From positions 372,001 to 436,000 of the forward strand of contig QQUE01000015.1 of assembly GCA_008501765.1 (NCBI GenBank): 64,000 nt of DNA. Reading direction: 5' to 3'. The stretch comes from Calditrichota bacterium (GTDB lineage Bacteria; Zhuqueibacterota; Zhuqueibacteria; Zhuqueibacterales; Geothermadaptataceae). The position numbers and the translations under genes were made by a program. How positions within the stretch are numbered: position 1 is the stretch's first letter; each line of letters starts with the position of its first letter. The notes beneath the pieces were generated by a model. The model searched no databases. It was not told where the DNA came from and was given only the letters and a program-made list of their open reading frames with translations. Below, in pieces: positions 21,405-59,780 of the stretch.

Positions 21405-23657
21405 TTATTTTGGATACAACGCCATCAAAACACGCTCGGGTGTAAAAGGTGCTGTGAAGGGGATTTCTGCCTGTGGACGGAATGCTTTCATCGCATTGCG
21501 AATTGCCAGCCAGGCCCCGATGCCGTACATGAATGGCGGTTCGCCAATTGCTTTGGAATGAAATAATCCGGCTGGATGTGCCGCGTTTTCGAGAAAGTGA
21601 GTCTGTATTTTTTCCGGTGCGAAATAAATATCCGGGATTTTATAAGTGCTCAGAGTGTTGGCCAAAAGCTGCCCATTTTCAGAGAAAACAACGTCTTCCA
21701 TTGCCATCCAGCCGATGCCCTGCACCAGCGCTCCCTCTACCTGGCCAAGGTCAACCTTCGGGGCCAGGCTGGTGCCAAGATCGTGCACAATGTCGACCGA
21801 TTCGATAATAAAAGTTCCGCGGATACAATCGAGTCGGGCAATTACAGCGGCTGTACCAAAGGAATAGTAGGCAAATGGATGGCCTTTTTCTTTGCTCTTG
21901 TCGAAATGAATTTTCGGAGTGGCATAATGTGCCTGGGCAGATAAACTTACGCGCGCCCAATAGGCCGAATCAACGAGTGAATTCCAGGTCAAATCGTTTT
22001 CGCGGCCCGAAACAAGAATTCTACTGTTTTCGAATGTGATATTTTCCGATTCTGTTTTCAGCGTTGCTGCGGCAAATTCTATTAATCGCTGCCGAATTTG
22101 TTCGCAGGCGATGCGCGTGGCGTGCCCGTTTAAATCCGCCCCGGAACTCGCTGCTGTGGGCGAGGTGTTTGCGACGCGGCCCGTATTCGTGGAATCGATG
22201 CGCACGGACTCGGGATTTACGCCCAATGTACGGGCTGCCACGGTGCGCAGTTTAGCATTGACGCCCTGACCCATTTCAACAGCGCCGGTGCTGACGCTGA
22301 CGCTGCCGTCGTTGTAGACGTGTACCAGTGCGCCGGCCTGATTCAACGAAGTGTTGGTAAAAGAGATGCCAAAAGTAACCGGCATGCATGCAAAACCTTT
22401 TTTCACCAGCTTGTTCTTTTGATTAAACTCCTGCACATCCCGTTGTTTTTCATGCCAGTTAAAGCGTTCCGTATTGTGCTGCCAGCACGGTTTGATGCGG
22501 CACGCTGCCATAATCTGGCCGTATGGCAATTCATCGCCATCTTTCAGCAAATTTTTTTCCTGAATTGAACTGGCATCGACACCCATTTTTTCTGCGGCGG
22601 CAACAATAGCCGATTCGATGACAAACATCGCTTGCGGGCCACCAAAACCACGGAAAGCCGTGTTCGGGGGTAAGTTTGTACGACAGCTCAATGCCGTGGC
22701 TTTCACGTTTGGGATGTAGTAACTATTGCTGGCATGAAAGAGAGTGCGCTCGAGAATCGCAGTTGAAAGGTCTGCGGCTGCACCGGCATTTTGATAATAT
22801 GTTGCCTCATAGGCTAAAATTTTGCCGTCCTGCGTCAGCCCGATCTTAAAATCCGAGCTGTAGGGATGGCGTTTGCCCGTCATTATCATATCTTCGTGGC
22901 GGCGCAAAATGAGCTTCACCGGGCGCCGGACACAAATTGCTGCCAAACCGGCCATGACCGCCCAGGGCGTGGCCTGATCTTCTTTACCACCAAAACCCCC
23001 GCCGAGCCGCAACACATCGACCTCAATTTTGTGCATCGGCAAATCCAAAACCCGCGCTGCAATGCGTTGTACGGCTGTTGGTCCCTGGGTGCTGGAAATA
23101 AGCTGAAGTCCACCGTCTTCCTTGAGCGACGCAAAGGCTCCCTGCGTTTCAAGGTAGAGATGTTCCTGGCCGCCGGTTTCGGTGCTGCCGGAACTAATCG
23201 TTTCACATTGTGCCCACGCCAGATCTGTATCTCCACAAGAAAATGTGCGGGGTGGTGCAATGAGTTGCCCGTTTTTCGCAGCGATGCGGGCATCGACGAC
23301 CGCCGGTTTTTCTTTATAGGCGATGCTAATCAATTCGACGGCTTCCCGGGCAATTTCCGCTGTTTCAGCAACGACGATAGCAATCGGTTGGCCGATAAAA
23401 TGAACTTCGTGGTCTGCCAAAAGCTGTTCATCCTGAATTATGGAGCCGATCTGATTTTCACCGGGAATATCCGGCGCGCACAATATCCTTTTCACACCGG
23501 GCAGTTTTTCAGCGTTTTGAATCTGTATCCTTTTAATAGTGCCGTGGGCGATGGCACTGCTTTTAACAGCGGCATGCAAGACTCCGGCCGGGCAGGGAAA
23601 ATCATCGACAAAACAGGATTCGCCGCGAACGTGCAGATTTGTGTCCTTGTTTTTCAT
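21405..23657 (-). CDS. xdhB: Xanthine dehydrogenase, molybdopterin-binding subunit
   Basis: 750 residues. Large subunit of a heteromeric xanthine dehydrogenase that hydroxylates hypoxanthine and xanthine. Motifs: RLGGGFGGKEDQ (molybdopterin), MTGKRHPYSSDFKIG, NTAFRGFGGPQAMFVIE (substrate Arg region), GAVEMGQGVNAKL, and the catalytic-Glu region AIGEPPFMYGIGAWLAIRNA near the C-terminus. Its ATG overlaps the stop of xdhA by four bases, giving coupled translation and a 1:1 complex. Downstream is 244 bp with no visible gene. Confidence 0.9.
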   Translation of the reverse strand: MKNKDTNLHVRGESCFVDDFPCPAGVLHAAVKSSAIAHGTIKRIQIQNAEKLPGVKRILCAPDIPGENQIGSIIQDEQLLADHEVHFIGQPIAIVVAETAEIAREAVELISIAYKEKPAVVDARIAAKNGQLIAPPRTFSCGDTDLAWAQCETISSGSTETGGQEHLYLETQGAFASLKEDGGLQLISSTQGPTAVQRIAARVLDLPMHKIEVDVLRLGGGFGGKEDQATPWAVMAGLAAICVRRPVKLILRRHEDMIMTGKRHPYSSDFKIGLTQDGKILAYEATYYQNAGAAADLSTAILERTLFHASNSYYIPNVKATALSCRTNLPPNTAFRGFGGPQAMFVIESAIVAAAEKMGVDASSIQEKNLLKDGDELPYGQIMAACRIKPCWQHNTERFNWHEKQRDVQEFNQKNKLVKKGFACMPVTFGISFTNTSLNQAGALVHVYNDGSVSVSTGAVEMGQGVNAKLRTVAARTLGVNPESVRIDSTNTGRVANTSPTAASSGADLNGHATRIACEQIRQRLIEFAAATLKTESENITFENSRILVSGRENDLTWNSLVDSAYWARVSLSAQAHYATPKIHFDKSKEKGHPFAYYSFGTAAVIARLDCIRGTFIIESVDIVHDLGTSLAPKVDLGQVEGALVQGIGWMAMEDVVFSENGQLLANTLSTYKIPDIYFAPEKIQTHFLENAAHPAGLFHSKAIGEPPFMYGIGAWLAIRNAMKAFRPQAEIPFTAPFTPERVLMALYPK

Positions 23658-25060
23658 GCCAGCACCTCCGCTCCAATCAATTCCGGAAACTGCGTGTGAA
23701 AATGAGCAAAAATAAATTGTTGCAGCAGTCGGCGTTTGTACTCAGCGCTGCCCCGTACGTCGCTGATTGGGGAAATTTCTTCGGCTGCAATTTTCATCGC
23801 TGATTCGACAATTGCCGGGTCAATTATTTTATCCTGTAAAAAAGCATTGGTATTTTTTAGAAGAAGGGGAATCGGCGCAACGCCTCCAGCGGAAATTCGA
23901 GCATCGGTAATTTTATTTTCCTCAACGGCAAAAAACGCGGCCGTATTGACGCTGGCGATATCCAAATGCGTGCGGCGTGATACTTTCTCAAAATTGAACT
24001 TAAATCCGGGATTCGGAATCGGGATTGAGATGTTATGAATGTGCTCGTCTTCCTGCAAATCCAGTTTTTTATACCCAAGGTAAAAATTATGTAAATCGAC
24101 TGTGCGGCTCGCAGATCCAATTTGCAGGATTAGTTTCGCTTCCAACGCGAGCAGTAAAATCACGAAATCAGCAATCGGTGAAGCATTGACAATATTGCCG
24201 GCCAAAGTCGCCCGTTCGCGGATGGGTTTCGAGGCGATGAGTTTCGAGTAGGTATCAATTTCAGGCAAGATTTCGCGAAAAACCGGCGTTTTCCGCACCT
24301 CTTCCATCGTCGCGCTTGCACCCACAATACACTGGTCATTTTCGCGATAAATTTCGCGGCTTTGCTGGCCATCATCGATGAATTGCAGTGGCTGTTTTAG
24401 TAATTTATCTGCTTGCTGGACAAATAAATCCGTCCCCCCTGCCACGATTTTTCCAGGATTTTCTGGTTCAACATCAAATTCTAATCGTGCAAGTTTTTGA
24501 GGAATCGTGTTAAAATATTCCGGCAATTGGCCAGTGCGAACAAGCTCGGGCACGCGCTTGTCCAGTGATAATTCGATGCGACTTTCAACTTCAGTGAGCA
24601 GCAATTTTATTGCCCGTTTGATAGATTCATAGCCGGTGCAACGGCAGATATTTCCCGCAACCGCCAGGATGGCTTCTTCAAAATTTAATGTTGGATTATT
24701 GAGTAAAAAATCGGTGAGAGAAAGAATAAAACCGGGCGTACAAAATCCACATTGGCTGGCGTGTTCGTCGACAAATGCATTTTGCAGAAGCGTGTTTTCC
24801 CGCAGATTCAGGCCTTCGATTGTCACTACATGTTTTCCGGCCAGTGATCCGATTGGCAACAGGCATGAATTTACAGCGCGATACTTTATTTCTTCATCGG
24901 CAATTTCACCCAACAAAACCGTGCAGGCCCCACAATCCCCCTCCCGACAGCCTTCTTTGGTTCCGGGCAATCTGCTTTCACGACGCACAAAATCAAGCAG
25001 AACAGTTCCATGATGCAGGCTCGTTGCAATTTTATTTTGATTTAAATAAAATGTGAGCAT
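23654..25060 (-). CDS. xdhA: Xanthine dehydrogenase, FAD and [2Fe-2S] subunit
   Basis: 468 residues from ATG 25060 (GGGAG upstream); a TTG at 25081 in frame is less likely. The N-terminal ~150 residues hold two [2Fe-2S] clusters (CREGDCGACTVLLG, QCGFCTPGF, CRCTGYESI). An FAD-binding domain follows (about 195-370, with IVAGGTDLFVQ and ERATLAGNIVNASPIADF), then a CO-dehydrogenase-flavoprotein C-terminal domain. It delivers electrons from the molybdenum subunit to NAD or another acceptor. It pairs with xdhB and lies downstream of the glycyl-radical activase gene across a 252-bp gap. Confidence 0.9.
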   Translation of the reverse strand: MLTFYLNQNKIATSLHHGTVLLDFVRRESRLPGTKEGCREGDCGACTVLLGEIADEEIKYRAVNSCLLPIGSLAGKHVVTIEGLNLRENTLLQNAFVDEHASQCGFCTPGFILSLTDFLLNNPTLNFEEAILAVAGNICRCTGYESIKRAIKLLLTEVESRIELSLDKRVPELVRTGQLPEYFNTIPQKLARLEFDVEPENPGKIVAGGTDLFVQQADKLLKQPLQFIDDGQQSREIYRENDQCIVGASATMEEVRKTPVFREILPEIDTYSKLIASKPIRERATLAGNIVNASPIADFVILLLALEAKLILQIGSASRTVDLHNFYLGYKKLDLQEDEHIHNISIPIPNPGFKFNFEKVSRRTHLDIASVNTAAFFAVEENKITDARISAGGVAPIPLLLKNTNAFLQDKIIDPAIVESAMKIAAEEISPISDVRGSAEYKRRLLQQFIFAHFHTQFPELIGAEVLA

Positions 25061-25312
25061 TTGTATTTCTCCCGGTTGCAAGAAGTGTGATGGTCTGGTA
25101 ACTTTTGAAGAAACAAAACTTCAGGGAGAGATTCAATAGCAAATCCAATAACCAATATTCAATTTTCAATTTCCAACTGAAGAATTGAGCGTAACCATTC
25201 ATTTGACCAAATAACCGAGATAACGTACCAATTATTGACTGAGAAATTACTGCAAGACAAGTTTTCGCAGACATTGCGTGTTGATTATTGGATATTGGGT
25301 GTTGAAAAAAAA

Positions 25313-59246: not shown

Positions 59247-59780
59247 ATGGCATTTATCGACTATATCCCGTTAGAAAACATTCCTGAAAAAGACCGTGTT
59301 TCAGATAAAGATAATATTTTGCGCATTCATGGCGTGCATAGCCGAATAATGAAAAAACACTATGATTTGTACCGGGAACTCATGTACAGCAGCGGATTAT
59401 TGAGTCGCATGCAGCGGGAAATGATCGCTGTTGTCGTTTCAAAGGAAAATGAATGTCATTACTGAATTGTGCACCACGGAGCGGGGCTCCGTCGTGTCGT
59501 CGAAGTAAGTCAGTTGGATAAAGAAGAAACGAATCAGTTTTTACTTGCACTCAAAGAAGATTTCAGAACCGCAAATATAACAGCAGCAGATCGCGCCATG
59601 CTGGATTACGCCGTTAAATTAACACACAGGCCGGCAGAAATGACAGCCGCCGATGTACAAACATTAAAAAAACATGGCTTTGACGACCGCGCCATCCATG
59701 ATATTTGTGCCATCACGGCCTATTTTGCGTTTGTAAACCGTATTGCTGATGGGCTGGGAGTTGAGTTGGAAACAAGCTAA
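59247..59780 (+). CDS. AhpD-like peroxidase-related protein, probable selenoprotein (in-frame TGA = Sec73)
   Basis: 177 residues if TGA at 59463-59465 is read as selenocysteine. The frame is open on both sides of that single TGA. Upstream it ends REMIAVVVSKENECHY and downstream it resumes IVHHGAGLRRV, which together form the AhpD/peroxidase-related core. The CxxC of the family would be C70-H-Y-U73. The proton-relay residues of AhpD fit: Glu58 is 12 before C70 and His77 is 4 after position 73. A GC-rich hairpin follows the TGA (listed apart). Start ATG 59247 with GAGG upstream. It should reduce peroxides or disulfides in the cytoplasm. The alternative is a Cys-to-stop mutation in a dying gene. 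Confidence 0.85.
59472..59496 (+). promoter_or_regulatory. Candidate bacterial SECIS hairpin
   Basis: Upper stem ACGGAGC (59476-59482) pairs perfectly with GCTCCGT (59486-59492) around a GGG loop (59483-59485). A lower stem CAC/GTG (59472-59474, 59494-59496) continues after a C-C mismatch. The loop starts 17 bases after the TGA, within the 16-37 base range reported for bacterial SECIS, and the first loop base is G, as the consensus wants. It is inside the coding sequence, as expected in bacteria. Confidence 0.75.

Follow-up and report, generated by a model that had tools for sequence, protein, structure and literature searches.

The active site of AhpD contains a CxxC motif in which the second Cys attacks and the first one resolves, while a Glu and a His relay protons. 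Forms of such proteins with selenocysteine (Sec) in the motif (CxxU) have been reported from environmental sequence data; 27 AhpD-like selenoproteins assigned to COG2128 were described in 2005 from the Sargasso Sea set (PMC1088965), and AhpD-like 1 and 2 selenoproteins were listed in larger numbers for the GOS set (PMC2398784). An entry in a 2026 review gives 'AhpD-like protein, TIGR01926, CxxU' as a selenoprotein family (PMC13188914). The same review describes the constraints on the bacterial SECIS element (bSECIS) as a loop of 3–9 nt with G in the first two loop positions, an upper stem of 4–16 bp, and a location of the loop 16–37 nt past the UGA (PMC13188914).

The gene considered here lies in a 64,000-nt stretch of DNA, hereafter the window, whose genome (5.9 Mb, 98.9% complete) shares its class with a record titled Caldithrix sp. 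(Calditrichota). A preliminary description of the window, made from its sequence, proposed an AhpD-like probable selenoprotein with a SECIS, in which an in-frame TGA splits an otherwise open frame exactly at the second Cys of CxxC, and stated that Sec in AhpD-like CxxU sites had been reported before. These points agree with the present analysis and, for the last one, with the three sources above (PMC1088965, PMC2398784, PMC13188914). The suggestion that this branch was unreported does not hold, as the review already counts TIGR01926 with CxxU among the selenoprotein families (PMC13188914). The reading frame begins with the ATG at 59247, which is preceded at a short distance by GAGG, and closes with a TAA at 59778–59780; its sole in-frame TGA before this TAA is codon 73, and the motif reads C70-H-Y-U73. 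The coordinates of the features are collected in the table.

Table. Features of the Sec-encoding gene and of the xanthine dehydrogenase locus in the window.
Feature	Position	Strand	Details and basis
AhpD-like (TIGR01926) selenoprotein CDS	59247..59780	+	177 aa with Sec73, final TAA counted in
TGA read as Sec73, second position of CxxU	59463..59465	+	TGA 57/63, Cys 6/63 aligned loci
TGT = Cys70, resolving Cys of CxxU	59454..59456	+	sequence; invariant in 20-sequence alignment
Glu58, proposed proton-relay residue	59418..59420	+	43/43 and 20/20 invariant; role by analogy with AhpD
His77, proposed proton-relay residue	59475..59477	+	43/43 and 20/20 invariant; role by analogy with AhpD
bSECIS upper stem-loop	59476..59492	+	stem 59476–59482 with 59486–59492, loop GGG 59483–59485; fold, covariation, frozen codons, constraints
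Xanthine dehydrogenase, two genes	small subunit 23654–25081, Mo subunit 21405–23657	-	profile scores

The gene product scores 129.8 bits against the TIGR01926 'peroxidase-related enzyme' profile (NCBIfam; curated cut-off 81.8) and matches the Pfam CMD domain. E58, C70, U73 and H77, that is, the CxxU together with Glu and His at the AhpD spacing that is looked for in a TIGR01926 member, are invariant in the 20-sequence alignment, so that the two relay residues named in the preliminary description are indeed kept. The best match among solved structures is PDB 2pfx (E 2.7e-27), which has Cys opposite the TGA. This structure and 3c1l, 2oyo, 2prr, and 6k40 are peroxidase-related proteins of TIGR01926 type and belong to the same family by sequence, with E values down to 2.7e-27, but carry Cys where the window gene has Sec, as seen in three alignments. 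A second family, the NF041238 AhpD_rel_CFYUT alkylhydroperoxidase-related (seleno)protein, is likewise AhpD-related with a CxxU, and its model is 357 positions long; the window gene reaches 56.7 bits against its cut-off of 175, which rules it out as the family of this gene.

Homologues of the gene were drawn from 99 related genomes and from GTDB contigs. The aligned column is TGA or Cys: 63 loci cover it, of which 57 have TGA, a count that takes in the window gene itself and two pairs of near-duplicates, and six have TGT or TGC, and the GTDB loci covering the site have TGA in 35 of 35 cases. The TGA forms span at least eight named phyla and come from records of Acidobacteria, Gemmatimonadetes, Desulfosarcina, Neomarinimicrobiota, Krumholzibacteriota, SAR324, Chloroflexi, Planctomycetota, Zixiibacteriota, and Caldithrix. 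Synonymous sites are saturated and dN/dS is unusable; the share of differences at third codon positions was used instead. Compared to either of two homologues (L048 and L049), the window gene differs mostly at third positions, before the TGA as well as after it, and for L048 the third-position differences amount to 51 of 76 upstream and 82 of 140 downstream. Both halves are therefore coding. Frame decay around the TGA in close relatives, named beforehand as an observation that would speak against recoding, is confined to one relative with an extra stop codon (L019 and L077, from the Caldithrix record). Its in-frame TAG is located about 18 codons past the conserved TGA in a variable stretch, and may be due to pseudogenisation, to misassembly or to another cause.

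The 7-bp stem with a GGG loop that had been described after the TGA is borne out, with 17 bases to the loop and 10 to the stem, and its 3-nt loop, stem length, and spacing fit the published bSECIS constraints. Its fold energy is unremarkable for its composition (z about −1.2 to −1.8). Among 51 distinct aligned sequences, the stem positions are paired in 92.8% of cells, compared to 32–57% when the 3′ partners are slid, and ten double-sided changes occur at three pairs, compared to 1.2 in shuffles; the shuffle control seldom or never matched these values. For example, GGAG/CTCC in the main group of homologues corresponds to GCAG/CTGC in a distant group. Synonymous codon use is nearly frozen from codon +4 to codon +9 (Ala GCG 31/31, Leu CTC 40/43, Arg CGT 34/40, and His CAC 39/43), with the exception of the Gly codon of the loop (+7), which shows a mild codon bias only. 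The same-codon rate is 0.59–1.00 at codons +4, +5, +6, +8, and +9, where 0.20–0.59 is expected, and returns to background at codons +10 and +11 (0.22–0.24 versus 0.20). Such a pattern marks an RNA element that lies within a coding region. A scan of the 64,000-nt window with Rfam at gathering thresholds gave no match, which says nothing against a bSECIS. With its strongly conserved in-frame SECIS, the family offers a clean test case of how bases can serve RNA structure and protein coding at once.

Since the TGA is found in 57 of 63 loci, the stem covaries, and the synonymous codons are frozen, the case is lifted above chance. A lone stop that splits an otherwise ordinary gene, one base away from TGT and TGC, could by itself be taken for a pseudogene or for a sequencing error in a Cys codon. 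This explanation has practically no probability left, because 56 other loci, which belong to several phyla, independently have the same TGA, protein constraint acts on both halves, the downstream synonymous positions are frozen within a covarying hairpin, and the genome contains the Sec machinery; a chance stop or pseudogene is thus rejected. It is also very improbable that the TGA acts as a genuine stop or as a site of regulated readthrough, which would yield a 72-aa CMD fragment and a separately made ORF of 103 aa. The downstream ORF does have a GTG start at 59469, but this GTG is not conserved, codon +2 being Val in 20 of 43 sequences and GTG in only five of the 43. Moreover, five Cys homologues (L031, L032, L033, L034, and L037) each run through the position as one uninterrupted chain, and the SECIS geometry and the SelB machinery fit Sec insertion. 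A standard annotation without recoding would cut the gene into these two fragments, whereas its predicted product is one full-length selenoprotein.

The Sec machinery is complete in the window's genome. A tRNA-Sec scores 66.4 bits, above the cut-off, and is called by ARAGORN as tRNA-SeC with anticodon tca; SelB (342.5 bits) is encoded close to it on the same contig, and SelA (544.2 bits) and SelD (353 bits) are also present. Because the genome holds all four components (selA, selB, selC, and selD), the lack of selB or tRNA-Sec, which had been named as a refutation, does not apply. The SelD gene contains one in-frame TGA in the context SCG-TGA-AAKASP, which is the usual SelD active-site context, and this locus (L089, G000:C3:229267-230187, minus strand) is by its sequence itself a selenoprotein gene. 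Across the related genomes, selB was found in 64 of 99, so that a test of its co-occurrence with the TGA form has little power; it was not found in three genomes with TGA forms (G005, G006, and G043), which are 83–91% complete. Collectively, the machinery, the TGA/Cys column, and the covarying stem support a selenoprotein with a SECIS, and sequence and comparison establish the recoding site, the RNA element, the Sec machinery, and the protein family.

We consider it very likely that Sec73 is inserted under the direction of SelB and the stem-loop in a TIGR01926-type AhpD-like enzyme whose CHYU site would reduce a hydroperoxide or a similar oxidant. In the proposed mechanism, SelB would bind the stem-loop just 3′ of the UGA at codon 73 and bring Sec-tRNA(Sec), and the ribosome would insert Sec and continue to the TAA at 59778. 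By analogy with AhpD, Sec73 would be the attacking residue of CHYU and react with the oxidant, Cys70 would resolve the oxidised Sec73 as a selenenylsulfide, and Glu58 and His77 would relay protons; a cellular thiol or lipoyl compound is the candidate reductant for regeneration of the Cys70-Sec73 site. A selenenylsulfide site that reduces a hydroperoxide or a disulfide is the most likely reading; from homology we infer an activity as peroxidase or disulfide reductase, and likewise the reductant and the role in the cell.

The selenoprotein might instead act mainly as a thiol-disulfide oxidoreductase or adaptor rather than as a direct peroxidase, a reading that we rate somewhat below an even chance. 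TIGR01926 is named only 'peroxidase-related', the roles of AhpD-like and CMD proteins are varied, and no neighbour gene is conserved across phyla, the shared flanks being found solely within one Gemmatimonadota group. On the other hand, the AhpD catalytic spacing is kept by E58, C70, U73, and H77. Because no neighbour is conserved, the gene context gives no functional hint. The gene had been placed between two class C hydrolases, which is correct for the downstream neighbour, a gene of the class C beta-lactamase family, but not for the upstream one, a DUF1572/DinB-like gene. The selenium-hydroxylase locus that had been reported elsewhere in the window, at 21405–25081, looks like an ordinary xanthine dehydrogenase: it scores 826.8 bits as xanthine dehydrogenase and 288 bits with the Se-dependent model, for which the cut-off is 830, and a selenium hydroxylase is not supported. 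Both subunits score higher as the ordinary than as the Se-dependent type, with the Mo subunit slightly under the curated cut-off of its model and the small subunit further under its own.

In the tree, the window gene belongs to a group that spans several phyla and has good support (100/98, 33 rows), and all of its members have TGA. TGA homologues from the window genome's own family (L021, L022, L023, and L030) fall outside this group, and a close copy of the gene was not found in the two genomes of the same genus, one of which is 67% complete. The gene has likely moved horizontally between Sec-using bacteria, with differential loss of paralogues as the alternative. A broader idea, that the 'MAFIDYIP' sub-branch of TIGR01926 is a Sec-only lineage spreading horizontally between such bacteria, is put forward tentatively and is a little less probable than its opposite; TGA is found in this sub-branch at all 35 GTDB loci covering the site, in several phyla. 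Placing the Cys forms on the tree takes three changes, and long branches lead to some of these forms.

Two further sets of TGA-containing genes were observed. Within the same phylum, TGA also occupies the column in a second TIGR01926-like group that is distant from the main one (L042, L043, L044, L035, L045, and L046), with the SECIS stem altered to CGCAG...CTGCG, and four genomes (G013, G019, G031, and G037) contain both the main and the distant form. In addition, two genomes of the window's class encode TIGR01926-type proteins, at L039:1447-2028 (minus strand) and L040:1297-1941 (plus strand), with TGA at the Sec column and a Gly where the resolving Cys would otherwise be (GGAPU rather than CxxU). 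They are 68% identical to each other, and one is above the TIGR01926 cut-off and the other slightly under it. Their SECIS-like hairpins 3′ of the TGA, ACGGC-AGTTC-GCCGT and GGCGGC-AGTTC-GCCGCC, differ by paired changes in the stem, with fold energies that alone are not significant. A TIGR01926-type Sec enzyme without the resolving Cys would require an external thiol. This GAPU variant is less familiar than the CxxU form; it was not found in the parts of the AhpD-like selenoprotein literature consulted here.

In comparison with the known CxxU AhpD-like selenoprotein (TIGR01926/COG2128; GOS AhpD-like 1), no difference in kind from the window gene was found. Both belong to the same NCBIfam family, both have Sec as the second residue of CxxU, and both have a bSECIS just downstream. 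In view of the earlier reports of CxxU AhpD-like proteins, the window gene is therefore a further well-supported member of a described selenoprotein family, to which a Calditrichota-related genome contributes a solid example.
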